IMG/VR virus record: IMGVR_UViG_3300031787_011371
Coordinates: 1 to 64,000 of that record
From: a virus
Direction: 5' to 3' (one strand)
DNA: 64,000 nt
Shown: one piece after another, positions 1 to 44,059 of the stretch
Layout of the letters: each line of letters starts with the position of its first letter
How positions within the stretch are numbered: the stretch's first letter is position 1
Notes under the pieces: model-generated
Seen by the model: the letters and a program-made list of their open reading frames with translations, nothing else
The model's database searches: none
What the model was told of the DNA's origin: nothing
Made by a program: the position numbers and the translations under genes

Positions 1-513
1 ACATCAGGCGCTAATGGTTCATCAGGAACTTCTGGAACTGCAGGAAGTTCTGGAACAAGCGGAACTGCAGGAAGCTCTGGCTCTGCAGGAAGTGCAGGCT
101 CTTCAGGTACATCAGGCGCTAATGGTTCATCAGGAACTTCTGGAACTGCAGGAAGTTCTGGAACAAGCGGAACTGCAGGAAGCTCTGGCTCTGCAGGAAG
201 TGCAGGCTCTTCAGGTACATCAGGTGCCAACGGTTCATCAGGAACTTCTGGAACTGCTGGTTCTTCTGGAACAAGCGGAACTGCAGGAAGTTCTGGTACA
301 AGTGGTACTGCTGGCTCTTCAGGTACATCAGGTGCCAACGGTTCATCTGGAACTTCTGGGACAGCTGGTTCTTCAGGAACAAGCGGAACTGCAGGAAGTT
401 CTGGTACAAGTGGTACTGCTGGCTCTTCAGGTACATCAGGTGCTAATGGTTCATCAGGAACAAGCGGAACTGCTGGTTCTTCAGGAACAAGTGGTACTGC
501 TGGTTCTTCAGGT
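1..513 (+). repeat. 108-base direct repeats built from a 27-base module
   Basis: Near-identical copies begin at 1, 109, 217, 325 and 433, each opening with ACATCAGG(C/T)GC. The spacing is 108 bases (36 codons); the last copy is shortened to 81 bases. Both numbers are multiples of 27 bases, the length of one 9-residue module. The first two copies are almost base-identical, which suggests recent duplication by recombination. Confidence 0.85.
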
Positions 514-1260
514 ACATCAGGAACTAGAGGTTCATCAGGAACTTCTGGAACAGCAGGTTCTTCAGGAACAAGTGGAACTGCAGGAAGTTCTGGTACAAGT
601 GGTACTGATGGTTCTTCAGGAACTTCAGGAACTTCAGGAACTGCAGGAAGCGCAGGCTCTTCTGGTACTGGATTTAATACTATAACAAATCCATTAAATG
701 ATAGAGTATTAACTTCTTTAGGAACAACAAATACTGCAAATGCAGAAGCGAATCTTACATTTGATGGTACTCTATTACAAATTAGTGGTACAACTAGTGG
801 TGCAACTCTATTTAATATTATTGGTACACAAGGTCAATTGTTTAGTGTAAACGATAATCTTATAGGAGACATTTTTTCGGTTAATGATATTTCTGGTATT
901 CCAATATTAACTGTTAACTCTAATGATAGGGTAACTATTGATGGAACTTTAGTTTTAAATTCAACTTTATCAACTGGATTGGGTGCAGCAACTCATACTG
1001 TTGCAACAGTTGATATGTCATTAGGTCAAGCTGCTTATTTTGATTATTATGTTATGAGTGGAACAACATTAAGGTCTGGTGTTGTATTGGGAGTTTGGAA
1101 TGGAACATCTGCAAAATATACAGAAGTTTCAACAAAAGATTTAGGAGGAAACACAAATGCAGTTGATTTATCTGTTGATGTATCAGGTTCTGATGCTAGA
1201 CTTAGAGCAACAATTTCCAGTGGTACTTGGACAATAAAAACAGGTGTAAGAATAATTTAA
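1..1260 (+). CDS. Tail fibre protein, 5' end outside window (partial)
   Basis: An open frame (frame 1) enters from the left edge and stops at 1260, giving 419 residues without a start codon. Residues 1 to about 223 are a collagen-like low-complexity shaft built from 9-residue modules of the type GTSGTAGSS, with occasional ANG and TRG variants. A module beginning GTGFNTITNP follows and recurs almost unchanged in the large fibre at 3461-8431 (near 4618-4720). The last ~100 residues are a beta-rich domain with no Cys, resembling a distal fibre tip. Family knowledge: such Gly-rich repeats form trimeric shafts in phage fibres. The role is structural and probably adhesive. Its Ser/Thr-rich repeats are candidate O-glycosylation substrates (inference). 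Confidence 0.8.
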   Translation, partial: TSGANGSSGTSGTAGSSGTSGTAGSSGSAGSAGSSGTSGANGSSGTSGTAGSSGTSGTAGSSGSAGSAGSSGTSGANGSSGTSGTAGSSGTSGTAGSSGTSGTAGSSGTSGANGSSGTSGTAGSSGTSGTAGSSGTSGTAGSSGTSGANGSSGTSGTAGSSGTSGTAGSSGTSGTRGSSGTSGTAGSSGTSGTAGSSGTSGTDGSSGTSGTSGTAGSAGSSGTGFNTITNPLNDRVLTSLGTTNTANAEANLTFDGTLLQISGTTSGATLFNIIGTQGQLFSVNDNLIGDIFSVNDISGIPILTVNSNDRVTIDGTLVLNSTLSTGLGAATHTVATVDMSLGQAAYFDYYVMSGTTLRSGVVLGVWNGTSAKYTEVSTKDLGGNTNAVDLSVDVSGSDARLRATISSGTWTIKTGVRII

Positions 1261-1999: not shown

Positions 2000-2013
2000 A
2001 TATATTTATAACT

Positions 2014-2664: not shown

Positions 2665-3326
2665 TGTACACAGGACCTAAAATAATTACAGATAATTTAA
2701 TTTTATGTTTAGATGCTGCAAACATAAAATCATATACAAGCGGTTCTACTTATTGGTACGATTTGAGTAAAACTATCAGCGGTTCTACATTAATAAACAA
2801 CCCTTCTTTTGATAGTAGTGTTAATGGAAGTTTATATTTTAATGGAACAGATGAATACGCTAATTGTGGCAACTTTTCTTCACAACAAATAACAAGTGGA
2901 ACTATTTTATGTTGGTTTAAAGGACAACAACAAGGCAATGACTACAATGGAATAGTTGTTAAATCTGGAGCTTGGGGAATTTTTATATTTCAATCTAAAT
3001 TATACCTATATGATTGGGGTAATGGCGTTGGCAGAGACACAGGAGTAAATGTATCAGATAACACTTGGAGAAATGTAGCTTTTACATTTTCTAGCACAGA
3101 ATTAGGACTGTCAAATAACTCTTTTGTATATATAAACGGCAATCAAGTTTTAAATACCACAGTAAAACATTCAACACATTCATCTCCATTGCTTGTTGGA
3201 TATGGAAATTGGTTGTCCCAATATTTCCAAGGCAATATATCTTATTTACAAATATACAACCGTGTACTTACAGGTGTAGAAATTAAACAAAATTATAATT
3301 CAACAAAATCCCGTTTTTCTTTATAA
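2664..3326 (+). CDS. LamG/concanavalin A-like lectin domain protein (third paralogue)
   Basis: The 220-residue protein starts one base inside the preceding stop codon. It carries the same N-terminal signature (GPKIITDNLILCLDAAN), a YFNGTDEY strand, a WRNVAFTF strand typical of LamG domains and the shared ending STKSRFSL. It is the last gene before a 134-base gap. Three diverging copies in tandem suggest duplication followed by divergence of ligand specificity, as seen for phage adhesins. No catalytic motif is apparent, so binding rather than glycan cleavage is the more likely role. Confidence 0.75.
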   Translation: MYTGPKIITDNLILCLDAANIKSYTSGSTYWYDLSKTISGSTLINNPSFDSSVNGSLYFNGTDEYANCGNFSSQQITSGTILCWFKGQQQGNDYNGIVVKSGAWGIFIFQSKLYLYDWGNGVGRDTGVNVSDNTWRNVAFTFSSTELGLSNNSFVYINGNQVLNTTVKHSTHSSPLLVGYGNWLSQYFQGNISYLQIYNRVLTGVEIKQNYNSTKSRFSL

Positions 3327-3460: not shown

Positions 3461-6400
3461 ATGTCTAACGAATTTATTGCTAGAAAAGGTTTGGTAGTTC
3501 AGTCTCTTACAACAGGTACGACTGAAACTGAAATCCTTGTTGTTGATAGTGATGGATTAGTTAAAGTAAGAACAAGTATAGCTTTAGGTGGTTCTTCTGG
3601 GTCTTCTGGTACAAGTGGTACGTCTGGTTCATCAGGAAGTTCTGGTACATCAGGTTCTTCAGGAACTTCTGGTACGGCTGGAAGTTCTGGTACTAGTGGT
3701 ACAGCAGGTTCTTCTGGAACTTCTGGTGCTAATGGTTCTTCAGGTTCTTCAGGAACTTCTGGTACGGCTGGAAGTTCTGGTACTAGTGGTACAGCAGGTT
3801 CTTCTGGAACTTCAGGAACTAGAGGCTCATCAGGAACTTCTGGAACTGCTGGCTCATCAGGAACTTCTGGAACTTCTGGCTCATCAGGTTCTTCAGGAAC
3901 TTCTGGTACAGCAGGTTCTTCTGGTACTAGTGGTACAGCAGGTTCTTCTGGTACATCAGGCGCTAATGGTTCTTCAGGTTCTTCAGGAACATCAGGCGCT
4001 AATGGCTCTTCAGGTTCTTCAGGAACTTCTGGTACAGCAGGTTCTTCAGGAACTTCTGGTACAGCAGGTTCTTCTGGAACTTCAGGAACTAGAGGCTCAT
4101 CAGGAACTTCTGGAACTGCTGGCTCATCAGGAACTTCTGGAACTTCTGGCTCATCAGGTTCTTCAGGAACTTCTGGTACAGCAGGTTCTTCTGGTACTAG
4201 TGGTACAGCAGGTTCTTCTGGTACATCAGGCGCTAATGGTTCTTCAGGTTCTTCAGGAACATCAGGCGCTAATGGCTCTTCAGGTTCTTCAGGAACTTCT
4301 GGTACAGCAGGTTCTTCAGGAACTTCTGGTACGGCTGGAAGTTCTGGTACTAGTGGTACAGCAGGTTCTTCTGGAACTTCTGGTGCTAATGGTTCTTCAG
4401 GTTCTTCAGGAACTTCTGGTACGGCTGGAAGTTCTGGTACTAGTGGTACAGCAGGTTCTTCTGGAACTTCAGGAACTAGAGGCTCATCAGGTTCTTCAGG
4501 AACTTCTGGTACGGCTGGAAGTTCTGGTACTAGTGGTACAGCAGGTTCTTCTGGTACATCAGGCGCTAATGGCTCTTCAGGAAGTTCTGGCTCTGCAGGA
4601 AGTGCAGGTTCTTCAGGAACTGGATTTAATACAATAACAAATCCTGCAGATAACAGAGTATTAACATCACTTGGCACAACAAACACTGCTAACGCAGAGG
4701 CTAATCTTACGTTTGATGGTTCTCTTTTAGATGTGACTGGAGGTGTTAATGTTCAAAATGGAAATAACATTACTTGGGGAGGTACATATGCAGCTGGAAG
4801 CCCAACTATTTCTTCATCAAATGCTGGAGCATCCTCTTATATTGGATTTTATCCACAAGGAGTTACATCAGGTGAGATTGTAAGAATACAAGCATCTGGA
4901 AATACGACAATAAACGGCACTTTAACAGTTCAAACTATTGCATCAGGTACTACAACCGATGTATTAGTAAAAGAATCGACAGGAAGAGTTACATATAGAA
5001 CTCTTGCTTCTATAGGAGGTACTTCAGGTTCTTCTGGCACAAGTGGTACGGCAGGCTCTTCTGGTACAAGTGGTACGGCTGGAAGTTCTGGTACTAGTGG
5101 TACAGCAGGCTCTTCAGGAACTTCAGGAACTAGAGGCTCATCAGGAACTTCTGGTACGGCTGGAAGTTCTGGTACTAGTGGTACAGCAGGCTCTTCAGGA
5201 ACTTCTGGAACTGCTGGCTCATCAGGTACATCAGGCGCTAATGGCTCTTCAGGTTCTTCAGGAACTTCTGGTACAGCAGGTTCTTCAGGAACTTCTGGTA
5301 CGGCTGGAAGTTCTGGTACTAGTGGTACAGCAGGCTCTTCAGGAACTTCAGGAACTAGAGGCTCATCAGGAACTTCTGGAACTGCTGGCTCATCAGGAAG
5401 TTCAGGCTCTTCAGGAAGTTCAGGCTCTGCAGGAAGCGCAGGTTCTTCTGGTAGAAATAATCCTCAATATTGGACTTCTGGTTCAACTTGGAACGGAACA
5501 AACTATCCAATTAAAGCAGATAATAATAGTGGTTTAGATTCTACTGGTTCATATGCTGTTGCTGAAGGATTTAAAACATCAGCATTTGGAGATTATTCTC
5601 ATGCTGAAGGTCGTGATGGAACATCACTAGGTCGTTCTTCTCATGCAGAAGGAGAAAACACAAAAGCTCTTAGTGCATATACTCATGCAGAAGGCTTTCA
5701 AACAATTGCATCAAACATTGCTGCACACGCAGAAGGAAGTGGTACAACGGCAAGTGGACAATATTCTCATTCTGAAGGCCATAAGTCAACTGCATTTGGA
5801 GATGGTTCACATGCTGAAGGTGGTGCGGTAATAAGCTTGACACCTTTTAGTGGAGGTACTGCTATTGGTGCAAGTTCACATGCGGAAGGTATTGAAACAA
5901 CATCTTTTGGTATAGTATCACATTCTGAAGGTGTATATACTACCGCATTTGGAGAAGGTTCACACGCTGAAGGACTTTACTCTTTTGCTTATGGAACATA
6001 TTCTCATACTGAAGGTGATAATACAACTGCTAGTGGAAATTCATCTCATGCAGAAGGACTTAATAGTGTTGCATTTGGAAATAATTCACATGCTGAAGGG
6101 TATAACACAACGGCAATAGGTGCGTTTGGTTCACACTCTGAAGGTGATTATACAACTGCATTTGGAGATGGTTCACATGCTGAAGGAAGCGGTACACTTG
6201 CTTTTCAAGAAAGGTCTCATGCAGAAGGTAGTTTTACCACATCTGTAGGATTAGCTTCTCACTCTGAAGGTCAATATACAACTGCTATTGGTAATTACTC
6301 TCATGCAGAAGGTAGTGGTACTACAGCAGTTGGAATTAGTTCACATGCAGAGGGTTATCAAACAACAGCTTTTGGCCTTTATTCTCACACAGAAGGTTCT

Positions 6401-8431
6401 GGAACAACTGCAAGTAACACACATTCTCATTCTGAAGGTACTAACACAAAAGCAACTGGTTTAGCAGCTCATGCTGAAGGTGATTTAACACTCGCTAGTG
6501 GTTCAACATCACATGCCGAAGGTTATCAAACAATAGCTGGTGGTGATTATTCACACTCAGAAGGTTATCAGACAATTGCTAGCGGCTTATATTCCCACGC
6601 TGAAGGTCAGTCATCAAGAGCAACTAATAATGATTCACATGCTGAAGGTTTAGGTACATTAGCAAGCGGAGCAAATTCACATACTGAAGGTCAATTAACA
6701 ACCGCCAGTTCCTCAAATTCACATGCTGAAGGTATACTAACAACAGCCGCTGGTTCACCATCACACGCTGAGGGTACTGCAACAAAAGCTATTGGTGATG
6801 CATCACACTCTGAAGGTAATACTACATTTGCAAGTGGTGCAAGTTCACACGCAGAAGGTTGGTTAACAACAGCGGCAAACACAGCATCTCACGCAGAAGG
6901 TTATCAAACAACAGCTTTTGGCCTTTACTCTCACGCAGAAGGTTCTGGAACAACTGCAAGTAACACATATTCTCATTCCGAAGGTACTAATACAAAAGCA
7001 ACTGGTTTAGCAGCTCATTCTGAAGGTGATTTCACACTCGCTAGTGGTTCATCATCACACGCTGAAGGTATTCAAACTACAGCGTCAGGAAATTATTCAC
7101 ACGCTGAAGGTGCGTCAAATACAGCTATTGGTTCACAGTCACACACTGAAGGTGCATTAACAAGTGCTATCGGTCAATCATCACACGCTGAGGGTGAACT
7201 TACAATAGCAAGTGGTCAAGGTTCTCATTCTGAAGGTGCTGGAACTATAGCTAGTGGTGGATTCTCGCATGCTGAAGGTAGAATAAGTACAGCATTTGGA
7301 TTATATTCTCACGCAGAAGGCTCTGGAACAACTGCAAGTAACACAGCGTCTCATTCTCAAGGTGCTAATACAAAAGCAACTGGTTTAGCAGCTCATGCTG
7401 AAGGAGAATCCACAATAGCTTCAGGAGATTATTCACATGCACAAGGACTTTCAACAACAGCTTCTAGCACATATGCTCACGCTGAAGGAAGATTGACAGT
7501 AGCAAGCGGTTTATTTTCACATGCTGGAGGAGATGGGTCTCTTGCTGGAACTGCAGCATACACTTTCGCTCATGGACTTTCGTGTATTGCATCTGGTCAG
7601 TCCTCTGTAGCTATGGGTGCATATGCTAGAGCAACTTCTTTAGGTGCAGTTGCCATGGGAAGAGGTCCTAGTGTATCTTCTCCTTTAGTAGCAGGAGCGC
7701 AAGGTGCTATAAATTTAAGTTATAGAGCTTCTGCAACTGCAGGTCTTGGAGAAATTTATGGATTATACTCATCATTGGTTGGTGGATTAAATAATTTGAT
7801 AGATATAAATGGAGACCAATCTGGTATATTTGTAGGTACTACTAATGCAATAAGTGCATCAACATCTGCTATAATAGCAGGAAATAGTTGTGTTATTGGT
7901 ATAGGTCATAGTAATAGTATAATATTAGGTGGAACCTCTCAAACTACAGATGGTTCTGGTCAAGTTGTATTAGGTGGAATAAGAAGGCTTGGGTGGGTAT
8001 ATTCTAATACATTAACAGCAGCAATAGCAAATACATCTAACACAAACTACACTCAAATATTCAACTTTACAGCAGTTGCAAACTCCATTTATAGGGCTAA
8101 CATTATAGGTACATATCAAACTGCAGCTTTAACTACTGGAATAAAGGTTAGACTAAGTGGTACTGCAACTTGTAACGTAGTAGGTAGAATGTATGGTGCA
8201 ATATCAGCTAACGCAGTTGCTACAGAATTAGCTTTTCCAGCAACAACAATGACTTCAGAACTTGTAACGACTGATGTGTCGGCTACAAACACACCTCACC
8301 ATATTGGTGCAGATATTATTTTTAGATGTACGGTGGGAGGTACAGTTATAGTCGCAATGGCATCTGAGGTTAACGCCTCATCTGCACAATTAAATATAGG
8401 AACTTCAATGATTGTAGAACGAATAAATTAA
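3461..8431 (+). CDS. Giant tail fibre: Gly/Ser/Thr shaft plus YadA-head repeat stalk
   Basis: This 1656-residue fibre has at least six parts. Residues 1-43 are an N-terminal module ending in VKVRTSIALGG. Residues ~44-385 are GSSGTSGTAG shaft repeats. Residues ~386-520 form a folded domain that includes a GTGFNTITNP segment and a second copy of the N-terminal module (VTYRTLASIGG). A second shaft follows to about residue 665. Residues ~700-1385 contain about 46 tandem 14-residue repeats of the form SHAEGxxTTAxGxx, which match YadA-head (left-handed beta-roll) repeats of trimeric adhesins. The last ~250 residues look like a receptor-binding tip. The product is probably trimeric. Its many Ser/Thr residues make it the prime candidate substrate for the adjacent glycosylation operon (inference). 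ATG at 3461 is the only sensible start. Confidence 0.85.
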   Translation: MSNEFIARKGLVVQSLTTGTTETEILVVDSDGLVKVRTSIALGGSSGSSGTSGTSGSSGSSGTSGSSGTSGTAGSSGTSGTAGSSGTSGANGSSGSSGTSGTAGSSGTSGTAGSSGTSGTRGSSGTSGTAGSSGTSGTSGSSGSSGTSGTAGSSGTSGTAGSSGTSGANGSSGSSGTSGANGSSGSSGTSGTAGSSGTSGTAGSSGTSGTRGSSGTSGTAGSSGTSGTSGSSGSSGTSGTAGSSGTSGTAGSSGTSGANGSSGSSGTSGANGSSGSSGTSGTAGSSGTSGTAGSSGTSGTAGSSGTSGANGSSGSSGTSGTAGSSGTSGTAGSSGTSGTRGSSGSSGTSGTAGSSGTSGTAGSSGTSGANGSSGSSGSAGSAGSSGTGFNTITNPADNRVLTSLGTTNTANAEANLTFDGSLLDVTGGVNVQNGNNITWGGTYAAGSPTISSSNAGASSYIGFYPQGVTSGEIVRIQASGNTTINGTLTVQTIASGTTTDVLVKESTGRVTYRTLASIGGTSGSSGTSGTAGSSGTSGTAGSSGTSGTAGSSGTSGTRGSSGTSGTAGSSGTSGTAGSSGTSGTAGSSGTSGANGSSGSSGTSGTAGSSGTSGTAGSSGTSGTAGSSGTSGTRGSSGTSGTAGSSGSSGSSGSSGSAGSAGSSGRNNPQYWTSGSTWNGTNYPIKADNNSGLDSTGSYAVAEGFKTSAFGDYSHAEGRDGTSLGRSSHAEGENTKALSAYTHAEGFQTIASNIAAHAEGSGTTASGQYSHSEGHKSTAFGDGSHAEGGAVISLTPFSGGTAIGASSHAEGIETTSFGIVSHSEGVYTTAFGEGSHAEGLYSFAYGTYSHTEGDNTTASGNSSHAEGLNSVAFGNNSHAEGYNTTAIGAFGSHSEGDYTTAFGDGSHAEGSGTLAFQERSHAEGSFTTSVGLASHSEGQYTTAIGNYSHAEGSGTTAVGISSHAEGYQTTAFGLYSHTEGSGTTASNTHSHSEGTNTKATGLAAHAEGDLTLASGSTSHAEGYQTIAGGDYSHSEGYQTIASGLYSHAEGQSSRATNNDSHAEGLGTLASGANSHTEGQLTTASSSNSHAEGILTTAAGSPSHAEGTATKAIGDASHSEGNTTFASGASSHAEGWLTTAANTASHAEGYQTTAFGLYSHAEGSGTTASNTYSHSEGTNTKATGLAAHSEGDFTLASGSSSHAEGIQTTASGNYSHAEGASNTAIGSQSHTEGALTSAIGQSSHAEGELTIASGQGSHSEGAGTIASGGFSHAEGRISTAFGLYSHAEGSGTTASNTASHSQGANTKATGLAAHAEGESTIASGDYSHAQGLSTTASSTYAHAEGRLTVASGLFSHAGGDGSLAGTAAYTFAHGLSCIASGQSSVAMGAYARATSLGAVAMGRGPSVSSPLVAGAQGAINLSYRASATAGLGEIYGLYSSLVGGLNNLIDINGDQSGIFVGTTNAISASTSAIIAGNSCVIGIGHSNSIILGGTSQTTDGSGQVVLGGIRRLGWVYSNTLTAAIANTSNTNYTQIFNFTAVANSIYRANIIGTYQTAALTTGIKVRLSGTATCNVVGRMYGAISANAVATELAFPATTMTSELVTTDVSATNTPHHIGADIIFRCTVGGTVIVAMASEVNASSAQLNIGTSMIVERIN
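3791..4330 (+). repeat. Exact 270-base tandem duplication in the fibre shaft
   Basis: The stretch starting near 3791 (ACAGCAGGTTCTTCTGGAAC) recurs from 4061 with no base difference that I can find over about 270 bases. The unit is ten 27-base modules, or 90 residues. Perfect identity in a coding repeat implies a recent duplication, so shaft length is likely to vary between isolates. Confidence 0.8.
5598..7600 (+). repeat. About 46 tandem YadA-head-type repeats (42 bases each)
   Basis: The encoded 14-residue repeats begin S/A-H-A/S/T-E-G and carry T-A-x-G near the middle. A larger super-repeat is visible: the block from about 6355 (YQTTAFGLY, SGTTASN, TNTKATGLA) recurs from about 6897 and in part from about 7297. 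The blocks differ by scattered mostly silent changes, so this duplication is older than the 270-base one in the shaft. Confidence 0.8.
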
Positions 8432-8844: not shown

Positions 8845-10977
8845 TTATATTATTTTTTTTATCTTTTCTATTACTATATTCCCAGTAATAGATTTACTAC
8901 ATTCAAATTGTCTACTTGTTCCCTTATGTAATGGACACCAGTTCCAATCGCCCTTGTCAAACCTAAAATCAGGTTTCATCCAACAAGAATTGCACACTGA
9001 TTCATTTACTATTCTAGTACAATTACTTGAAAATTCATGTTCTTTATTTGTAAAATTAGAAATCAAAAAAACATGTTTAGACAAAGACCAGGCAAGCCAA
9101 GAAAGACCGCTAGATAATCCTATGAAGAATTTACATCCTTTAATACACCTAATTATTTCTTCCATAGAATATTCAGATAAATTTTGTACTCCCTTTAAGT
9201 CAGTTCCTTCTTTTGAAACATTATAAACTTTAAATCCTTTTGATATTAAAAAATCAACAACTTCTTGCCAACCAGTAGGATTATTCCAATACTTTAATCC
9301 TGCAGTTGAATGAGGAGCTATAACAACATAATCACTAAACATAAATGGCCATCGATTTATGTTTTTAGTATCTACAATTGGTTTTATTTCTTTGTAATCT
9401 AAACCTAAAATGTTAGTTGCAACTTTTTGTAGTGGTATTGTATTACAAAGTTCTGGTTCTAAATTAGAATCATAAAAACAGCCAACTTTATACATTGCAT
9501 ACAAATTTTCGACAACATCTCCTGGATTTATAAATTCTAATTCTTTATAAGAGCCTTTAAATAAATCATTTAAAAATGTAGAAACAACAACTTTACAATT
9601 GTGTTTCTTTCTAAATTCTTCAACATATGGAATCCAAGCAAGATTATCTCCAATAGAAGACGAATCAATTGCTATATAAACTTTTTTATTATTTAAATCT
9701 ATTTTTTTATCATAAACAATGTTTCCTTCTGTAGAAACCTTTATATGCCAATCGGTATAATATTGTTTATTTGGCTTACACCATTGACCAACTCCTATTT
9801 CTGTTGAAAATACTAATTCGTTATTAATAGAATCGAAAAACTCTACTTTATATTTTCTATTACTAATACCTTTTAATTCTACTTTTGCACCCATAACAAG
9901 ATTTATATCTATACCAATCTTTTCTATAGGTTCTCTATATACTTCACCTTTTCTTTTCTTGCTTGAATTGTATACATTTTTATATAATTCTTTAGTTTCT
10001 TTTGAATTATATTCTTTTTTAATGTTTATAATTGATTTATATGAGTCTATCAATCTATTAACTATTTTAGACCAATCGAAATTCTGCCTATCATCGTTAC
10101 ATTTATCAAGATAGCTAGGGTAATTTAATACAACTTTATTAATACCCTTAACAATAGATTCTGTATTTCTTGTCGTATTAACAAATGCTTTAATTTCTAA
10201 ACTGCCATCATAAACTCCAACGACTGGCATAAGACAAGAAATTGCCTCTAGTATCGTTAAATTAGGATGTCCCGCCTCTAATTCTGATGGATGTATAAAT
10301 ATAGAGTGACTTCTATATATTTCTAACAGCTCATCTTCAGATACGTTTCTTGTAATTAAATTCAACCCTTCATATTCCAATAAATCCTTATTGTTTTTAA
10401 AAAAGTTTAGATTATTTTCAGGTCCAACAATAGTAATTGGTAATCCCAACTCTTTAGCTGCCTCTATTGCATATCTAAAACCTTTTCTATCATAAGAATT
10501 GTCATCAGAATATCCGTTATTTGCAACACAAAGTAATTTAATATCCTGTTTGAACTTATCTTCATTTGAAGGGGTGAAATAAGTAATATCAACACCATGA
10601 CTAATATAGAACAGCTTATCTGTATTTTCAAAAAAGTCTACAAGAAATTCTGCATGGCAAAATGAAACAATAGAACCTTTAATGGCTTCTAAATTTTGTT
10701 TATATAATTCAGAATCTTTTCCATATCTATAAACATGATGGTCATGCAAAGAAAAAATATATGGAATTCCCATTTCTTTTGCTTCTAATGCTAAATTCGC
10801 AACATGAATATGTACTATATCGTATTCATTTTGTTTTATCTCATTTAAATATTTTATATCACATATATAACCTTTTGATTCAAAATTTAATTTATAATTC
10901 CAAATCACTTTTTCAATTGCCCCCCATCCATTAGGTGGTATTGTTATTATTCCTGGTGTTATTTGTGTTATTCTCAT
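8845..10977 (-). CDS. GT4 glycosyltransferase fused to a TibC/BAHT-like O-heptosyltransferase
   Basis: This 710-residue protein has two enzymes in one chain. Residues 1 to ~330 look like a GT-B fold GT4 enzyme (N-terminal PPNGWGAIEKV, later LFVHPSELEAG-like IFIHPSELEAGHPNL). Residues ~355-710 resemble the bacterial autotransporter heptosyltransferases (TibC, Aah): an N-terminal beta-barrel, then a Rossmann-like catalytic part containing IAPHSTAGLKYWN and FIGLSSGLSWLAW. Near the C-terminus four Cys (about 662, 665, 681 and 693, spaced C-x2-C-x15-C-x11-C, with CNSCW and QFEC) correspond to the iron-finger motif of that family. Family knowledge: BAHTs transfer heptose from ADP-heptose to Ser in repeat proteins. 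The Ser/Thr-rich fibre is encoded on the other side of one small gene, so it is the likely acceptor (inference). Last gene of operon A. Confidence 0.75.
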   Translation of the reverse strand: MRITQITPGIITIPPNGWGAIEKVIWNYKLNFESKGYICDIKYLNEIKQNEYDIVHIHVANLALEAKEMGIPYIFSLHDHHVYRYGKDSELYKQNLEAIKGSIVSFCHAEFLVDFFENTDKLFYISHGVDITYFTPSNEDKFKQDIKLLCVANNGYSDDNSYDRKGFRYAIEAAKELGLPITIVGPENNLNFFKNNKDLLEYEGLNLITRNVSEDELLEIYRSHSIFIHPSELEAGHPNLTILEAISCLMPVVGVYDGSLEIKAFVNTTRNTESIVKGINKVVLNYPSYLDKCNDDRQNFDWSKIVNRLIDSYKSIINIKKEYNSKETKELYKNVYNSSKKRKGEVYREPIEKIGIDINLVMGAKVELKGISNRKYKVEFFDSINNELVFSTEIGVGQWCKPNKQYYTDWHIKVSTEGNIVYDKKIDLNNKKVYIAIDSSSIGDNLAWIPYVEEFRKKHNCKVVVSTFLNDLFKGSYKELEFINPGDVVENLYAMYKVGCFYDSNLEPELCNTIPLQKVATNILGLDYKEIKPIVDTKNINRWPFMFSDYVVIAPHSTAGLKYWNNPTGWQEVVDFLISKGFKVYNVSKEGTDLKGVQNLSEYSMEEIIRCIKGCKFFIGLSSGLSWLAWSLSKHVFLISNFTNKEHEFSSNCTRIVNESVCNSCWMKPDFRFDKGDWNWCPLHKGTSRQFECSKSITGNIVIEKIKKII

Positions 10978-12725
10978 CTTAAAACAATATATGAATTTAT
11001 GTCTTTATTTTCTTTTGCAAATATAAGATTTTCTTTTTCAAAAATCTCTATTTTTTTTGTGTTATTAGGCAATAAATTATAAGACCAAGTATTTTTGCCG
11101 TATAAAATATGCTCTATTTTCAATTCTTCTCCATTATCGTCATTGTACTTTATTACTCTATTTACGTCTGAATCTCTGTAATTATAGCTTAAAACTGCTA
11201 TTCCATCAATTGGATTCATATTTATATCAAAAACTTTATAAAACTCAGTTGTACATCCATTATATTTACTGTTTAAGCTACTTTCAGAAGTTACTGTATT
11301 CCATTTTGTTTCTCCAAAATCTGTAATCATGTCAGAGTTAGTTCTAATTATTAAATCATCAACAACAGAATTAAGGTTAAGTCTAACATATTGTTCTACT
11401 ATTTTAAAAACTCTTGGCTCAAAATTTCTTTCAAGATATTGAATATAATCATCTTCTGAATAAATGTTTTTTACGTTTTTAACAAAAAAATCAATTTCAC
11501 AAAAGAAATAATGAAATGAAATATCATCTTCATTAAAATAAAACAAACCTTTTTTATTATAATTATCACATAAGTTTGGAATGTTTTTCATAAAATTAAA
11601 TCCTTCTTCTCCTATAATTGCGTCAACTTCTATTCTTTGAAAATATTTATAACCTAAACTTGAAGCTATATTTAAAGCTCTAAATAAATTTATCATTACA
11701 GATAATCCATGCTTCTGTAAACCATTATTTATTATTTCATATATATCTATTGTATCATTTCTTTTCCATAAAACAAATGGTTCAGTATCAAATTTTTCTT
11801 CAGAAAATAATTTATTATTTTTATCATAGAAATAAAAATCTACTAAATCTATTATTTCTTTTTTAATTGTTGTATTTGAAATTAATAATACATCATTATT
11901 ATTTTCTTTTAATGATTTTACACATTCAAAAAGTCTATTTTCTATTTCTTCAGAATGTACATAACAATCTATTATTGTAATTGGTTTAAGTTTTAAATTC
12001 ATACTATTTTTATGTCTTTCTTTTAATAAATTCTTCATTGATTCATGAGTTTTTTCTTTTTCATCACTATTAAGAGAAGTTAGTACTCCTCCAAAATGTT
12101 CTCTATAAACTCCACCATACCAATCATCATTTTTAATTAATCCATGTAAAGACAATTCATAATTTAATGCGTAATCAAGATAAGGTAATTTATCCATATA
12201 ATCTTTATATATGCCTTTTATGTTTCTAAATACTCTTCCGAAACCAACATAATTGTTATCAAAAAGTTGTTCAGTTTTTACCGTTTCAAATAAAGACCAA
12301 AATGTAGAAACTCCATCTCCTGGTATATATTCATTTTCACCCCTTAATATACAATATCCAGTTCCATACATAACATAATCTTTATTTTCATCAAGAAAAT
12401 CAACTTGTTTTTGAAGTTTATATGGGTCTACATAATAGTCATCTCCATCCAAATATGCTACATATTCTCCTTTGGCTTGCTCAAGTAAAAATCTAATATT
12501 TTTATGAACTCCCCAATTTTCTGTAGCTTCATGAACTATTAAATTTGGAAAATAATTTTTTAATCTTAATAATATTTTATCAGAACCATCTTTAGAAAAA
12601 TCATCTCTAACTATAACTTCATAGTCAAAATTAGTTTTTTGATTAAGAACAGTCAATAAATTTACTTCTAAAAATTTAGCAAATTTATAAGCTGGTATTA
12701 TTACGCTTAATTTTATGGTCTCCAT
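10974..12725 (-). CDS. GT2 glycosyltransferase with a large unknown C-terminal domain
   Basis: Of 583 residues, the first ~240 are a typical GT-A family 2 domain: LSVIIPAYKFAKFLEVNL at the start, VRDDFSKDGS for nucleotide-sugar binding and AYLDGDDYY as the DxD motif. Residues ~245-583 are not recognised. They start with KPITIIDCYVHS, which itself resembles the first strand of a nucleotide-binding fold, and may be a second, divergent sugar-handling domain. The stop overlaps the start of the downstream gene (8845-10977) by four bases, so the two are translationally coupled. It is a cytoplasmic enzyme with no membrane helices, consistent with glycosylating a soluble protein rather than a lipid carrier. 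Confidence 0.75.
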   Translation of the reverse strand: METIKLSVIIPAYKFAKFLEVNLLTVLNQKTNFDYEVIVRDDFSKDGSDKILLRLKNYFPNLIVHEATENWGVHKNIRFLLEQAKGEYVAYLDGDDYYVDPYKLQKQVDFLDENKDYVMYGTGYCILRGENEYIPGDGVSTFWSLFETVKTEQLFDNNYVGFGRVFRNIKGIYKDYMDKLPYLDYALNYELSLHGLIKNDDWYGGVYREHFGGVLTSLNSDEKEKTHESMKNLLKERHKNSMNLKLKPITIIDCYVHSEEIENRLFECVKSLKENNNDVLLISNTTIKKEIIDLVDFYFYDKNNKLFSEEKFDTEPFVLWKRNDTIDIYEIINNGLQKHGLSVMINLFRALNIASSLGYKYFQRIEVDAIIGEEGFNFMKNIPNLCDNYNKKGLFYFNEDDISFHYFFCEIDFFVKNVKNIYSEDDYIQYLERNFEPRVFKIVEQYVRLNLNSVVDDLIIRTNSDMITDFGETKWNTVTSESSLNSKYNGCTTEFYKVFDINMNPIDGIAVLSYNYRDSDVNRVIKYNDDNGEELKIEHILYGKNTWSYNLLPNNTKKIEIFEKENLIFAKENKDINSYIVLR

Positions 12726-13378
12726 ATTCCTATGCCTCCAAATCCCTGTGAGTGTACACCGTTTAACTTAACCTTTCCAGACGATTTTGTACAAACTAAA
12801 TTTGTTTTTGTGCCTTCATTTAAATCTTCCCAAAACTTATATACTTGTCCAGCATAACTATCTGCAAATATATGATTTGGGTCTATATCGTGAAATGCTA
12901 TTACACCTCTTGGAGATAGTAATTTTTTGTAAATTTCAAAATCTCTTCTTACTCCATCATATGTATGGTCTCCATCAATAAAAATAAAATCAAATTGTGG
13001 GCAAAAATCTTTTACTTTATTAAACATTTCTTCAGTTTGAGAATTGCCTTGAAAAAATTTCCATTCTTCACCATACATAAAATGATGTATTATAGCCTCT
13101 CTTGGCTCTATGTCTATTGATACTTTTTTTCCTGTGGACAATTTTGACATAATCCAAAAGGTTGAACCCATAGTTCCAATCTCAAGAATGTTATGAGGCT
13201 TAAATCCTTTCATCCAATATGATAAATTTAATATTTCTTCATATACCTGCATAAATATGCATCTATCCATTAATTCTGCATTTAAACAGTAGTCAACCAA
13301 TTTTTTTGGGTCTAATAGCAATTTGTCTTTTTCTTTTTCTTCATTCATTTTTATTAATTTTAATATTTTATAAATCAA
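12713..13378 (-). CDS. Class I SAM methyltransferase (Methyltransf_24/CmcI-like)
   Basis: The 221-residue protein carries NILEIGTMGSTFW (SAM-binding motif I), SIDIEPRE (acidic ribose-binding residue after strand 2), FIFIDGDHTYDGVRRDFE and a VIAFHDI strand. This is the pattern of the Methyltransf_24 / cephalosporin-hydroxylase-like O-methyltransferases common in surface-glycan clusters. Its 3' end overlaps the next gene by 13 bases. It probably O-methylates a sugar or sugar-bearing intermediate; the exact substrate cannot be deduced. Confidence 0.75.
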   Translation of the reverse strand: MIYKILKLIKMNEEKEKDKLLLDPKKLVDYCLNAELMDRCIFMQVYEEILNLSYWMKGFKPHNILEIGTMGSTFWIMSKLSTGKKVSIDIEPREAIIHHFMYGEEWKFFQGNSQTEEMFNKVKDFCPQFDFIFIDGDHTYDGVRRDFEIYKKLLSPRGVIAFHDIDPNHIFADSYAGQVYKFWEDLNEGTKTNLVCTKSSGKVKLNGVHSQGFGGIGIWRP

Positions 13379-13383
13379 TTTTA

Positions 13384-14193
13384 TTAATTACAATTATTTA
13401 GAGTATAAGAACTTTGGCTTTCGTCCCAAGCCAAATTTATTACCATAAATTTTTCGTGACAATATGTTTTCCATTTTTTAGACCATCTTATTGCAAATTC
13501 AAGTTCTGTCCTCATATTGTTTATGTCATAACTTGTAGAAAACTCTCCAATTGACAAAAGTTTGTTTACATCATGAATACCAGGCCTTAAAGAAAAATGT
13601 GGCCAATTTATATACATCATCCAAAAATTATCTCCATTAAGAGCTTGTATTGCAGAAGATTCGTCTTTGAATAAATGCATATTTAATGGTAATTCTGGCT
13701 TATAAATCCATTCCCAAAAACAAATATTATTAACACGGAAAGTTTTAGGTTTATATTCATTTGGGAATTTTTTGTATGATTGAAAATAACTTACATAACC
13801 ACAATCATCATTAAAATTTAAAACTCTAATACCAGTTTCTATATCAAAAAAATCAACAAACAAATAATCGTCTTCAAGATGAAAACAAAAATCTGTATTT
13901 GTTTCATCCAAAACTTCTCTCCATCTATTTAATATTCTTGAATGTCTATAAGAATCTGGGAATGTGTCTTGATAAAAATGTTCTATTATTAAGTTTTTTT
14001 CTGGAAATAGTTCTTTTAATAATTTTTCCATTTCTAATTTATCTTCTTCTTTTGAAGAATCATCAAAAAATATTACATTGTCTATCTCATCTAAATCTCT
14101 ACAAAAAACAACGAAAGACTTAAGCACTCTTTTAAGTAGAGGTAATCTTTTACATGAAGTTATTGAAAGTGATACTGTTTTATTTAGAATCAT
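13384..14193 (-). CDS. Glycosyltransferase (GT-A, GT2-like)
   Basis: The 269-residue product starts with VSLSITSCKRLPLLKRVLKS, the first beta-strand/helix of GT-A transferases. It continues with IFFDDSS and FHLEDDYLF, an acidic DxD-like metal site. The middle has WPHFSLRPG, often seen in phage and cyanobacterial GT2-like proteins. It is shorter than usual but complete. It lies in the middle of operon A, six bases from its downstream neighbour on each side, so expression is shared. Specificity is unknown. Confidence 0.65.
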   Translation of the reverse strand: MILNKTVSLSITSCKRLPLLKRVLKSFVVFCRDLDEIDNVIFFDDSSKEEDKLEMEKLLKELFPEKNLIIEHFYQDTFPDSYRHSRILNRWREVLDETNTDFCFHLEDDYLFVDFFDIETGIRVLNFNDDCGYVSYFQSYKKFPNEYKPKTFRVNNICFWEWIYKPELPLNMHLFKDESSAIQALNGDNFWMMYINWPHFSLRPGIHDVNKLLSIGEFSTSYDINNMRTELEFAIRWSKKWKTYCHEKFMVINLAWDESQSSYTLNNCN

Positions 14194-14199
14194 AATTAT

Positions 14200-14784
14200 T
14201 TATTTTATTTTTGCTGGCACACCTACGTAAATTCCTGATTTAATAGCATCTTTAACTAAGCATGCTAAAGCTCCTACTGTTATATTATCTTTAATTGAAA
14301 CTTTTTCTTTTATGACTGAATTTGAGCCTAAATATACATAATTGCCAATTTCAACATTCCCAGAAACTATTGACCCTGGCATGGCGCTAAAAAAATCTCC
14401 TATTTTAGAGTCATGACCTATTTGAACTCCTCTGTTCAATATTGCATGTTTACCTATGTTTACATTACAAGTTATCATACTGTTAGCTCCAATGAAACTT
14501 CCTTCTCCTACCTTAAAATCTTGTCCAAATATTTGTGCGCTTGGATGTATAAAAGTAAAAAATTTAGTTTCTTTTGGTAGTTTGTCAAAAATTTTTTTTC
14601 TATCTTCTGAATCTCCAACAGCTATCATTATTGTATATTTATTTGGGTCAAATTCAGACAATGGTTTAACGTTTGAATCCGAATTATCCCAATATTCATC
14701 ATCAACAAATCTAATCATTGTTTTTAAGTTCATCTGAGCTATAACTTCTCTAGCATGACCTCCGTTTCCTATTAATGCTTTCAT
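14200..14784 (-). CDS. Sugar O/N-acetyltransferase (NeuD/PglD-like, left-handed beta-helix)
   Basis: The 194-residue protein begins KALIGNGGHAREVI, the Rossmann-like N-terminus of the NeuD/PglD family, and has IHPSAQIFG before a run of hexapeptide repeats (residues ~90-190; for example GEGSFIGANS and GNYVYLGSNS). The length matches the family. These trimeric enzymes transfer acetyl from acetyl-CoA to amino or hydroxyl groups of nucleotide sugars. The aminotransferase-like gene at 14781-15410 lies directly upstream and overlaps it by four bases, so an amination plus N-acetylation pair is plausible (inference). Confidence 0.8.
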   Translation of the reverse strand: MKALIGNGGHAREVIAQMNLKTMIRFVDDEYWDNSDSNVKPLSEFDPNKYTIMIAVGDSEDRKKIFDKLPKETKFFTFIHPSAQIFGQDFKVGEGSFIGANSMITCNVNIGKHAILNRGVQIGHDSKIGDFFSAMPGSIVSGNVEIGNYVYLGSNSVIKEKVSIKDNITVGALACLVKDAIKSGIYVGVPAKIK

Positions 14785-15410
14785 TGTTTATAAATTTCAT
14801 ATTTTGATAAATCTGGATATGGCAATTCTAAGTCTTCCATTTGTTTTTTTGAACCGTCTAAATTATAAAATTGAGGCATCATATGTAGACCTCTTGCGGC
14901 CAACTCTGGAATCATGTAAAAGTTCCATCCTAGCATATCAAAATAATCATCATGATAAGAACACTCCCTTCTACCGCTAAACCTTGCTCTTTTGAACCAT
15001 AGATATGCTTCATAGTCATCTGTTAGTATTGCACCTCCTTTTGATAATTTTAAATGCTTATATGGACCTGTAAAAGATATACACATATGAGTTCCTTTTA
15101 TGTACATGTCTGCAGTAAATCTAAGTGCAGAATCCCAAACTTTTGTTGGCTTAAGTTGATAAGCTCCTTTTATTGTTTTTTTATTTGTTTTTATAAATTT
15201 TACTTTTCCTCCTGCATGTATTATTTCGCAAGGAACAGAAGGGTATGTTCTTGATGGTATTTCAATTTCTTGGTCTTTTATCTTCTCGTAATAAAGTGCC
15301 AAAAATAATGCGTTACTCATATTATCAAGAGCGATAACATAAGGTGCTCCAGTATAATCGCTTAAAGCTTTTTCGAATTCTTCTGTTATTTTATGTACTC
15401 CGTTTGCCAT
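14781..15410 (-). CDS. Short DegT/DnrJ/EryC1-type PLP sugar aminotransferase
   Basis: At 209 residues this is little more than half the usual ~370 of the family. The PLP-binding half is present: VWDSA (Asp93, expected to contact the pyridine nitrogen), then SFTGPYKHLKLSKGGA with Lys118 in the position of the Schiff-base lysine. The N-terminal part (EFEKALSDYTGAPYVIALDN) is also family-like. The C-terminal small domain is mostly missing, with no frameshift or remnant downstream; the next gene follows directly. The gene may be a natural minimal form or a degenerate one. It is paired with the acetyltransferase at 14200-14784. Substrate unknown. Confidence 0.7.
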   Translation of the reverse strand: MANGVHKITEEFEKALSDYTGAPYVIALDNMSNALFLALYYEKIKDQEIEIPSRTYPSVPCEIIHAGGKVKFIKTNKKTIKGAYQLKPTKVWDSALRFTADMYIKGTHMCISFTGPYKHLKLSKGGAILTDDYEAYLWFKRARFSGRRECSYHDDYFDMLGWNFYMIPELAARGLHMMPQFYNLDGSKKQMEDLELPYPDLSKYEIYKQ

Positions 15411-15434
15411 AATATTAAAAATTGTTAAATATTT

Positions 15435-16712
15435 TTAATTCTTACAAAAAATTAAATTATCTATAGTTTTATGAAGTAATTTAAAATTCATATCTTTTAG
15501 GTATGAAATAATTTGTAACTCAGTATTTTCATCTATGAATTCAATACAAATTAATTTAACATTAAATTTTATTAAATCTATTTGTTTTAAAACTATAAAA
15601 TCATAACCTTCACAATCAATATTTATAAAATCAAAATTATATTCTTCTAAATTTTCTTTTTTTATAAAATCACTAAAAGTATAGAAGTCACAAAAAACTT
15701 CAGTCCAATTCATGCCTGTAAATCTATTCCTTTCATCAGAAATTAGAGTTGATAGAATTGATGCTGGAGCTTCACTGTTAACCCAGTCTCCGCTTTCGTA
15801 AAATTTTAATTTACCTGTTATATCAGATATTCCATAATTACACAGTAATATTTTTTCATTATTAATGTAATTGTCTTTTAGTTTATTAAATGCTTTAACG
15901 CTAGGTTCAAGGCAGACTCCAGACCAACCATTTAGTGACAAACTGTATGTATTACTAAAAGAAATTCCATCATTAGCTCCAATGTCTAAAAATCTTAATT
16001 TAGATGAGTCTTGATTTTCAAAATATTTTTCTATTATTTCTTGTTCTTCATTTTGAGAATAAATTATTTTTTCGGTAGACTTTATATAATAATTGTCGCC
16101 CCAAGAACCTCCATTAACAACAAACCAATATTCTTTGTGGAATCCAAATTCTTTTAAATAATCACTAATTTCTTGTTCTGTAGGATTTCCCACATACATT
16201 TCTCCAAAATTTATTTCAACCTTAATAACTTTTAAATTTTGACTTTTTAATAAATCGCCCATACCATTTAAAATTTTCAAATCGGCACCTTGACAATCTA
16301 AAACAAGCATATCTATTTCATTCCAATAAAAATCATTTTGCTTTTTTATATATTCATCAAACCTTTTTGCTATAGAAAACATTTTATCGGTAACACATAT
16401 TTCTGGATATGATTCAATGCATTTTTTGCCAATATCCATAAAAGAAGAACTTTCTTCATTATTTGTAATATTAAAAACTACTAATTGGTCATTTGAATCA
16501 GAAAGAACTAAAGGTATATAAACATTTTCAAAATTAAATTTTGAAGTATTTTTAATAAGTCTATTTAATAAATTATAGTTTCCCTCAACCCACACAACTT
16601 TCTCAACACCCAAAGTATCATATGAACTAGATTCTTGTCCAATACAAGCTCCTATATGACAAACATTTTTAATGTTATAATTTATAATTATATCTTTTTC
16701 TATCTGCTCCAT
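15435..16712 (-). CDS. Tandem FkbM-family methyltransferase (two domains)
   Basis: Two FkbM-like SAM methyltransferase domains sit in one 425-residue chain. The first (about residues 1-215) has VCHIGACIGQES, the acidic VVWVEGN and LVLDCQG at 136-142. The second (about 235-425) has RFLDIGANDGISFSNTY from residue 240, VCLEPS and NIDCEGYDFIVL. FkbM enzymes O-methylate hydroxyls on sugars or macrolides, and are frequent in surface polysaccharide clusters. The two domains are only distantly alike, so this is a fusion rather than a recent duplication. Its start overlaps the upstream stop by one base. Confidence 0.8.
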   Translation of the reverse strand: MEQIEKDIIINYNIKNVCHIGACIGQESSSYDTLGVEKVVWVEGNYNLLNRLIKNTSKFNFENVYIPLVLSDSNDQLVVFNITNNEESSSFMDIGKKCIESYPEICVTDKMFSIAKRFDEYIKKQNDFYWNEIDMLVLDCQGADLKILNGMGDLLKSQNLKVIKVEINFGEMYVGNPTEQEISDYLKEFGFHKEYWFVVNGGSWGDNYYIKSTEKIIYSQNEEQEIIEKYFENQDSSKLRFLDIGANDGISFSNTYSLSLNGWSGVCLEPSVKAFNKLKDNYINNEKILLCNYGISDITGKLKFYESGDWVNSEAPASILSTLISDERNRFTGMNWTEVFCDFYTFSDFIKKENLEEYNFDFINIDCEGYDFIVLKQIDLIKFNVKLICIEFIDENTELQIISYLKDMNFKLLHKTIDNLIFCKN

Positions 16713-18649
16713 TATTTTTTTCTTTTTGTAACAAGAACTCCGTGTTCACAATTAATATCAACTTTTAATTTATTTGCCATATCTAATTTATAGAATTCAC
16801 ATTCAAAACCATAAGATTCAAGCTTATCTACCATATCTCTAAGTTGACCTTTGTTTTGGTGGAATTCTATTAAAAATTTATCAATAATATTCATATGTTC
16901 AGGAGTTAAGGATTTAATTAAATCATATTCCCCTCCTTCAATATCACATTTAAATAATGATATTCTTTCAATATTGTTTTCTGCTACAATTTCATTCATT
17001 GTAACTGTTTCAAGTTCCATTGTTGAGTCTAATTCTTCATAGCCACTTACACTAGAATCCATCACTATTGTGCCTATTGTTGAATTTGAACTTGAATAAT
17101 TGAAATTTACAATTTTCTTTTCCTCAAACAGCGGAGCTAAATATACAGGAGACCTCTCTAAATCTGAACCCATAACAGTCTCTATACTCTTCTTTATGAG
17201 TGGATTTGCTTCTACTAATATAACTTTCTTTGCATTTTTGCTGTACATATACTTTGCAAATAAACCGATATTTGCCCCAATATCCAACACTAAATCTAAA
17301 TCATTAAGATTGAAACCACCGTAAATATCATCCGCAAAAAACTCTATATAATTTCTATAGCTACAATCAAATGGCATAAAACTTATAGGAGCAAGTCTTG
17401 GTAGTATATCGTTTACAACAATTGTCTCCGAGTGCTTTAGATTATTGTTTTCATCATAGAAATCAAGTAAAAAACCTCTAAAGTTTGGGTTTTGATAAAA
17501 TTTAAAGATGTGAGCTGGGATTGGGATAATAAACCAACCAGTATCTTTTGAAGCTTGAAATTCGAACCAATACATCGGTGCTCCAGAAGTCATACATTTC
17601 ACAGAAACATTCAATTTTATTGGAGTTTCTCCATGATAGTTTATTGTTATTTTATTTTCATCTCGCTCGTAAGCAGTACTAAATAAGCCATTCATATTTT
17701 CTAATTTAAATAATTTAATAATTTTTTGTGCATCCTCATCTAAGTCACCACTTAAGAACGTTATATTTTCATAGTTATCATATTTGCCACAATAGACATC
17801 AAGATTAAACATCATCATTGGCATATTATATTCTAGAGCCTCTTTTATAGCTATAGGGTTTAATTCTTTATTATTTTTATCTCCTCTTGAAGTAAATAAA
17901 AATAAATCACTAGCTTCTAAAAAGTCATTTACATCTGACCTTTCACCCCAAACAATACAATTTTCTGGTTTATTTGTCATTAACGGCTTCCAATAATCTG
18001 CAAAATTATCAGCTTGATTTCCTATAAAATGAAATTTAATTTTAAAGTCTTCTAACTTTTTAGCTAACTCAAAAATATATTTTTGGTTTTTTCTTGGAGT
18101 AAACAATCCAACATTTACAACATGCTTCCAGCTTTTATCAAATGACAACTTATCTTTAGCATAAGGATTTTTGTTTCTAAAATTTACAGGATATTCAATT
18201 ATATTATATGGAATATCAAAATTTAAATATCTAAGAGCGTTAAAAATAGAAACAAAGATAAAACTATCAGGAAGCCATCTTTTATGTTCAGGATTAAAAG
18301 AAGAATCATGAGTTGTTTCGTATATTACATATTTCCTATCATTTTTGTAAATTTTTTCAGTTAATGAGTCATTCATGAAAAATTCAGGAAACTCTTCCAT
18401 GGATATTATGTCTGGTTGGAAATCTTCTATAATATCAATCAAATCAAATTTATTTTCTCCTAAAGATATAAATTTATTTCCTAATATAGATGAAATTTTA
18501 TTTCTTTGTACAACGAATTCAGGAGCAACGAAATCATGCTCAATACACATAATTTCATATTCGTCTCTAAGCATTTCTATTTTACTTAAAGTAAATTGTG
18601 GAGCTCCGCCAGTAGATAAATGTGGTGTTATGAATAATATTTTTTTCAT
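16712..18649 (-). CDS. GT4 glycosyltransferase fused to FkbM methyltransferase
   Basis: First gene of operon A; 645 residues. Residues 1 to ~310 are GT-B, GT4-like: ILFITPHLSTGGAPQF at the N-terminus, then NVGLFTPRKNQKYIFELA and LFTSRGDKNNKELNPIAIKEAL. A middle beta-rich segment (~320-430) has no clear match. Residues ~440-645 are an FkbM domain with VLDIGANIGLF at 454-464, VILVEANP and KCDIEGGEYD near 567-576. One chain could therefore add a sugar and methylate it. A host-type promoter lies directly upstream, with the -7 box only five bases from the ATG; transcripts may be nearly leaderless. Confidence 0.8.
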   Translation of the reverse strand: MKKILFITPHLSTGGAPQFTLSKIEMLRDEYEIMCIEHDFVAPEFVVQRNKISSILGNKFISLGENKFDLIDIIEDFQPDIISMEEFPEFFMNDSLTEKIYKNDRKYVIYETTHDSSFNPEHKRWLPDSFIFVSIFNALRYLNFDIPYNIIEYPVNFRNKNPYAKDKLSFDKSWKHVVNVGLFTPRKNQKYIFELAKKLEDFKIKFHFIGNQADNFADYWKPLMTNKPENCIVWGERSDVNDFLEASDLFLFTSRGDKNNKELNPIAIKEALEYNMPMMMFNLDVYCGKYDNYENITFLSGDLDEDAQKIIKLFKLENMNGLFSTAYERDENKITINYHGETPIKLNVSVKCMTSGAPMYWFEFQASKDTGWFIIPIPAHIFKFYQNPNFRGFLLDFYDENNNLKHSETIVVNDILPRLAPISFMPFDCSYRNYIEFFADDIYGGFNLNDLDLVLDIGANIGLFAKYMYSKNAKKVILVEANPLIKKSIETVMGSDLERSPVYLAPLFEEKKIVNFNYSSSNSTIGTIVMDSSVSGYEELDSTMELETVTMNEIVAENNIERISLFKCDIEGGEYDLIKSLTPEHMNIIDKFLIEFHQNKGQLRDMVDKLESYGFECEFYKLDMANKLKVDINCEHGVLVTKRKK

Positions 18650-42937: not shown

Positions 42938-42957
42938 TTGTGTAATGTGTGATTTTT

Positions 42958-43446: not shown

Positions 43447-43452
43447 AATATT

Positions 43453-44052: not shown

Positions 44053-44059
44053 AATTTAT

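Follow-up and report, generated by a model that had tools for sequence, protein, structure and literature searches.

A phage-encoded TibC-like glycosyltransferase and its probable substrates, the Gly-Ser/Thr-Ser repeats of collagen-like fibres

What would a phage modify with an enzyme that resembles the bacterial autotransporter heptosyltransferases (BAHTs)? The question is raised by a locus in the IMG/VR virus record IMGVR_UViG_3300031787_011371 (73,366 bases), of which we analysed positions 1 to 64,000, a stretch of 64,000 nucleotides referred to here as the window. On its minus strand, at 8845..10977, lies an intact open reading frame (ORF) for a protein of 710 amino acids in which a GT4 glycosyltransferase domain is fused to a domain of the TibC/Aah type. 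The gene adjoins that of a collagen-like fibre of 1,656 amino acids (3461..8431, plus strand). Our analysis indicates that the protein is probably an O-glycosyltransferase of fibres with Gly-X-X (GXX) tracts, a member of what we call the GXX branch of the TibC/Aah family. We consider it likely that the enzymes of this branch O-glycosylate Gly-[Ser/Thr]-Ser tracts, here probably those of the phage's own collagen-like tail fibres, and do not act on autotransporter adhesins, the known targets of the family.

Sequence and predicted fold of the fusion protein

The N-terminal half (residues 1-345; 9943..10977; like all features of this gene, on the minus strand) matches the Pfam GT4 family Glycos_transf_1 (PF00534) with 33.7 bits against a cutoff of 26.4, carries the conserved EAGHPNLTILEA motif (E234...E244) and has as fold neighbours the GT4 enzymes BshA, MshA and PimA. 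A linker (residues 320-351; 9925..10020), of low confidence in the full-length AlphaFold model, leads to the TibC/Aah-type domain (residues 355-710; 8848..9915). Residues 355-709 score 288.2 bits (E=8.5e-86) with the NCBIfam model TIGR04414 (hepto_Aah_TibC), whose curated cutoff is 200, and phmmer aligned the domain with TibC (4rap) at E=2e-52. The AlphaFold model of residues 355-710 has a pLDDT of 91.9 and a pTM of 0.90; its top 21 matches in the PDB are TibC chains only (TM-score up to 0.89, best E=5e-36), and WaaC reaches merely about 0.5. By its sequence and its predicted fold, the protein is a member of the BAHT family.

The residues on which TibC depends are largely present. The four Cys of the iron finger, C662, C665, C681 and C693 (8899..8994), are spaced Cx2Cx15Cx11C, identically to Cys339, Cys342, Cys358 and Cys370 of the TibC iron finger (PMC4358343). 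Asp444 (9646..9648) corresponds to D110, the catalytic base of TibC, and Thr558, Lys562 and Trp627 correspond to its ligand residues T226, K230 and W305. Since the equivalents of D110, K230 and W305 and the four Cys are invariant across 47 non-redundant phage proteins, the enzyme is under selection. A preliminary description of this DNA, made from the sequence alone, had proposed a GT4 domain fused to a C-terminal half with the iron-finger spacing and the catalytic motifs of TibC/Aah, and had set a fold prediction against TibC as the check on its reading; fusion, fold, catalytic residues and iron finger are all as it described them. It overlooked two further features, the shortened thumb and the replacement of an adenine contact, and the autotransporter-type mode of action that it assigned to the enzyme found no support in that form, the full dodecamer thumb being missing in this clade and the strand-loop-strand acceptor repeats in its genomes.

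In TibC the thumb is a beta-hairpin whose tip, F265/V266, holds the dodecamer together and is required for activity (PMC4358343). Here the hairpin is absent: residues 588-602 (9172..9216) form a loop of 15 residues at its site, compared with 25 in TibC, and this loop is short (14-21 residues) in 47/47 non-redundant phage relatives. Because the dodecamer thumb is missing, the enzyme is probably a dimer or small oligomer, unlike the twelve-membered ring of TibC. Arg286, the adenine contact that TibC requires, is replaced by Ile608 (9154..9156). Of 64 phage clusters, 51 have Thr at this position; Arg is kept in just 4 and lost in 60, whereas it is present in 38/38 rows with a long loop. As thumb, adenine contact and acceptor repeat (see below) were each looked for and not found, the phage enzyme falls outside the autotransporter heptosyltransferases in the strict TibC/Aah sense.

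The changed adenine contact also bears on the donor. Heptose from ADP-heptose is possible, although the adenine-contact Arg is changed and the ADP-heptose synthase (TIGR02199) was not found in the virus record of the window. In a set of 40 phage records TIGR02199 was above the cutoff in 1/40 and otherwise mostly weak or absent, and we therefore rejected a phage-encoded supply of ADP-heptose.

Gly-X-X proteins beside the enzyme in phages and bacteria

The fibre at 3461..8431 matches PF01391 with 217 bits and tail fibre families of PHROGs. It contains 163 Gly-X-Y triplets, rich in GSS and GTS and with 270 Ser/Thr, over two Gly-[Ser/Thr]-X tracts (residues 44-385, 3590..4615, and residues 520-666, 5018..5458, both on the plus strand). 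The same repeats occur in a second GSSGTSG fibre (1..1260, plus strand), of which the C-terminal part is present, the contig start cutting the gene. The GXX tracts of both are almost proline-free, and both fibres are proposed acceptors. The ORF of the longer fibre also holds, at about 5561-7811, some 46 repeats of the SHAEG/HSEG type that resemble the heads of trimeric autotransporters, in a region with a weak match to the adhesin Ata.

To see how general this arrangement is, we surveyed the neighbourhoods of related phage genes. Relatives are encoded by at least 570 IMG/VR stretches and, among deposited phage genomes, by two huge phages, of 735 kb and of 636 kb, and by Microcystis phage Mel-JY01. 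In 43/64 phage BAHT clusters the available DNA of the locus includes a GSSG-type GXX protein, often convergent and directly downstream, and a GXX protein rich in Ser/Thr (GXX-S/T) is nearby in 25 of the 31 clusters with both flanks. When the Ser/Thr requirement was dropped, a GXX protein was present in 41/62 loci, with a median Ser/Thr fraction of the X and Y positions of 0.84 and a median proline of 0. The association was then approached from the other side, with 80 loci chosen solely by a GSSGTSG tract and 80 chosen by proline-type phage collagen, among which a few were near-duplicates. A BAHT was found in 18/80 loci of the first kind (12/28 of those with full flanks) and in 0/80 of the second (p=2.6e-6). 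With the baseplate gene as control bait, 0/16 loci had a BAHT and 0/16 had a GSSG fibre; no relatives of the neighbouring GT2 gene, sought as a further control bait, were confirmed, and that control was unusable.

The relatives collected from genome contigs and from phylum and order searches are of two kinds, long-loop and short-loop, and the short-loop members other than ours score 285-320 bits with TIGR04414. A GXX-S/T neighbour is present in 19/23 short-loop loci compared with 1/32 long-loop loci (p=5.6e-10); 6 of these 23 are contigs of metagenome-assembled genomes (MAGs) that have phage-like fusions or are of uncertain origin, and 17 are standalone genes. Fifteen of the 17 standalone genes lie near, usually within 1.5 kb of, a small exported protein with a GXX-S/T tract, for example one in which (GTSGTSG)n lies between a lipoprotein signal and an acidic tail; in the two misses the adjoining exported protein carries a GTHGTSG or poly-Ser tract. 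At the genome level, 11 of the 14 genomes with any strict GSSGTSG coding tract have it no more than about 2.5 kb from the BAHT, and within one order an S/T tract occurs in 5/6 BAHT-positive genomes versus 0/103 BAHT-negative ones. The tract flag of one genome (G799) was a 9-bp Gly-Cys-Ser repeat and so was excluded from the latter count. Small exported proteins or lipoproteins that consist mostly of (GTSGSSG)n adjoin the standalone TibC-like enzyme in loci L086 (8920-9780), L094 (8461-8838 and 11204-11827), L420 (10221-10625), L406 (7860-8807) and similar ones, some of them with an acidic tail.

The strand-loop-strand acceptor repeat of the autotransporters (TIGR04415) has the opposite distribution: it was found in 11/14 long-loop cell genomes versus 0/16 short-loop ones (p=6.7e-6), and in one long-loop locus the adjoining protein of 1,919 amino acids holds 37 such repeats. 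The search of 27 phage records, that of the window and 26 others, gave 0/27. With no matches in these phage records or short-loop genomes, we rejected a canonical autotransporter acceptor for them. A maximum-likelihood tree of 125 sequences agrees with this division, with the long-loop enzymes, including TibC, on one side (one exception) and the phage and short-loop enzymes on the other (SH-aLRT 99). In this tree the standalone short-loop enzymes of bacteria fall into at least two distinct groups amid the phage sequences; it was built quickly, contains some long branches and is unsure in its fine placement. The phage enzymes and some bacterial enzymes thus form a branch apart from the autotransporter enzymes, from which they had not previously been separated, and the co-occurrence with GXX-S/T proteins extends over phages and at least two bacterial groups. 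From this we infer the acceptor to be the GXX tracts.

The phage members differ from the standalone bacterial ones, which have one domain and roughly 370-430 amino acids, in being fused to other domains in 59/64 clusters. Partners include GT4, GT25, DXD-type glycosyltransferase (GT) and FkbM domains, in architectures such as GT4-BAHT, methyltransferase-GT-GT4-BAHT and GT4-GT25-BAHT-FkbM-DUF6165 that reach about 1,600 amino acids. In L037, L052, L049 and L145 the BAHT domain shares a single phage ORF with an FkbM methyltransferase, GT4, GT25 or DXD-type GT domain, and such multidomain ORFs are possible glycan assembly chains. A separate GT9-type protein of about 310 amino acids is encoded near the fibre in L204 (14611-15546; Pfam 61 bits), L213 (3748-4677) and L207 (9307-10236), and in L204 and L213 it is near the BAHT gene as well; it could be a second heptosyltransferase-like step.

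Weighing the fibre against other acceptors

If the fibres are the substrate, the BAHT half would transfer the first sugar, heptose or another nucleotide-activated sugar, onto Ser/Thr of the GXX tracts of the fibre at 3461-8431 and of that ending at 1260, in the host cytoplasm during infection and before virion assembly. The fused GT4 half would plausibly add the next sugar, as the architecture of the protein suggests, with the order of the sugars presumed, and the neighbouring GT2, FkbM and acetyltransferase genes may complete the glycan. The glycans may then stabilise a GXX helix that has no proline, or they may shield the fibre. Thr glycosylation is able to stabilise collagen (a reference cited in PMC3368898), and together with the nearly proline-free tracts this points to a structural role; the alternative, by analogy with mycobacteriophages, is shielding.

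Several observations weigh against this explanation. The GXX-S/T protein is missing in 6/31 phage clusters with long flanks, and 62/80 GXX-S/T fibre loci have no BAHT in the available DNA, many of them on short contigs. The S/T-type and proline-type control sets come from different phage lineages. The MAG locus L113 has a long-loop enzyme and a GXX neighbour, and the tree places it on the GXX side. The virion location of the fibre at 3461-8431 comes from family matches, not proteomics, and the support for O-glycosylation of GXX tracts is all comparative.

Could the enzyme instead alter the host surface, its lipopolysaccharide (LPS)/O-antigen or capsule, and so block superinfection, adjoining the fibre simply since host-interaction genes cluster? 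Glycosyltransferases of phage fibre regions are commonly assigned such a role, those of pelagimyophage tail-fibre islands have been read as host-surface modifiers (PMC7029224), and the large sugar gene set of the window, with GDP-mannose 4,6-dehydratase (GMD), GDP-fucose synthase-like and GalE proteins and many GTs, could serve a host polysaccharide. The domain family, however, is one of protein O-glycosyltransferases and not of LPS enzymes, as the low score of WaaC illustrates. The standalone bacterial members adjoin small exported GSSGTSG proteins with no fibre context, and the phage loci with proline-type collagen do without a BAHT; we regard a host-surface role as unlikely. The exported bacterial proteins raise a different alternative, since proteins with the same tract adjoin the cellular members of the clade and a GSSGTSG protein of the host, rather than the phage fibre, might be the substrate. 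Such tracts are rare, as the 0/103 BAHT-negative genomes indicate, and many BAHT phages have a tract-bearing fibre of their own next to the gene, which makes this alternative quite improbable. We give slightly less credence still to a canonical ADP-heptose BAHT whose acceptor is not the GXX tracts but an autotransporter or trimeric adhesin of the host, or else the head-like SHAEG repeats of the fibre. The TIGR04414 score is at equivalog level and the SHAEG-type repeats in the fibre are many, but TIGR04415 is absent from the window record, the 26 other phage records and the 16 short-loop genomes, SHAEG repeats occur in just two BAHT loci beyond the window record, both of which have a GXX protein too, and the thumb is shortened and Arg286 mostly replaced.

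The fibre therefore is the acceptor that we favour, at the strength given at the outset. With less assurance, we lean towards a broader proposal in which the TibC-like clade is specialised in the O-glycosylation of collagen-like Gly-Ser/Thr-Ser repeats free of proline, in phage fibres as in exported bacterial proteins, the phage fusions of up to about 1,600 amino acids, with their GT4, GT25 and methyltransferase domains, would build the whole fibre glycan, and the donor would be one other than, or besides, ADP-heptose.

Neighbouring genes, related systems and implications

The start of the GT4-BAHT gene is overlapped by that of a GT2-domain protein (10974..12725, minus strand), which may extend the glycan. 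Co-directional genes follow at 12713..18649 (minus strand) for a methyltransferase, a NeuD-like sugar acetyltransferase, a small DegT-like protein and FkbM-FkbM and GT4-FkbM proteins, with a possible part in glycan maturation. The DegT/DnrJ-like protein (14781-15410) has 209 amino acids against a profile of about 360 positions, which makes it far smaller than typical aminotransferases of the family, and keeps a likely pyridoxal phosphate (PLP)-lysine region (FTGPYKHLKLSKGG). Elsewhere in the window there are a phage nucleotide-sugar cluster of GalE, GDP-fucose synthase-like and GMD genes (41930-46058) and a phage-borne Family 6 glucosyltransferase (57281-57964; NF041524, marginally above the cutoff). 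Between the two fibres, at 1265-3326, lie three successive look-alike proteins of 216-244 amino acids, LamG/concanavalin-like by eye. A baseplate wedge-like protein (27804-29666) has 29-31% identity to those of Flavobacterium phage immuto and Microcystis phage Mel-JY01, a similarity that suggests a contractile-tailed phage.

How does this locus compare with known systems? It shares with the BAHTs TibC and Aah (TIGR04414; PDB 4RAP, 4RB4) the predicted fold, with its beta-strand-rich N-terminal region, as well as the catalytic Asp, the Thr/Lys/Trp ligand residues and the iron-finger spacing. It differs from them in the shortened thumb loop, the replaced adenine-contact Arg, the GT4 fusion and the neighbour, a Gly-Ser/Thr-Ser fibre instead of a strand-loop-strand acceptor. 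Glycosylated collagen-like proteins such as the exosporium glycoprotein BclA also carry their sugars on Ser/Thr within Gly-X-Y repeats, as we propose here. The repeats of BclA contain proline, unlike the nearly proline-free tracts of the window, and BclA is glycosylated by unrelated enzymes. Collagen-like trimeric phage fibres are known from the proline-type side-tail proteins of enterohaemorrhagic Escherichia coli (EHEC) prophages (PMC3368898); a recombinant protein of this kind was not glycosylated (PMC3368898), and proline-type phage collagen loci, unlike that of the window, had a BAHT in 0/80 cases.

Virion glycosylation itself has already been described in phages (Freeman 2023, cited in PMC12619734 and PMC11256854). 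In mycobacteriophages, as proposed here, phage-encoded glycosyltransferases act on the phage's own structural proteins; the targets are capsid and tail-tube C-termini, and the available parts of PMC12619734 and PMC11256854 mention neither a TibC-type enzyme nor a collagen-like fibre. The enzyme class and the acceptor, in contrast, appear new. Our search of the open-access literature found nothing relevant on a phage BAHT, and since most subscription papers and all preprints lay outside its scope, novelty is unproven. That the adjacent Ser/Thr-repeat fibres are acceptors, as the preliminary description had supposed, gained indirect but strong support from the comparative tests, including the recurrence of GXX-S/T proteins in the neighbourhood survey, with corrections as to the clade, the thumb and Arg286.

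Should the fibre prove to be the substrate, the GSSGTSG repeats of many aquatic phage fibres would be glycosylation substrates, and there would be a reason for the Ser/Thr-rich, proline-free composition of these fibres and for the sugar-gene clusters beside them. The BAHT family would gain a second acceptor class, and the linkage would be testable in small bacterial systems in which one enzyme gene lies beside one gene for an exported protein. Decoration of the fibre would then join the known ways in which phages alter their surface.
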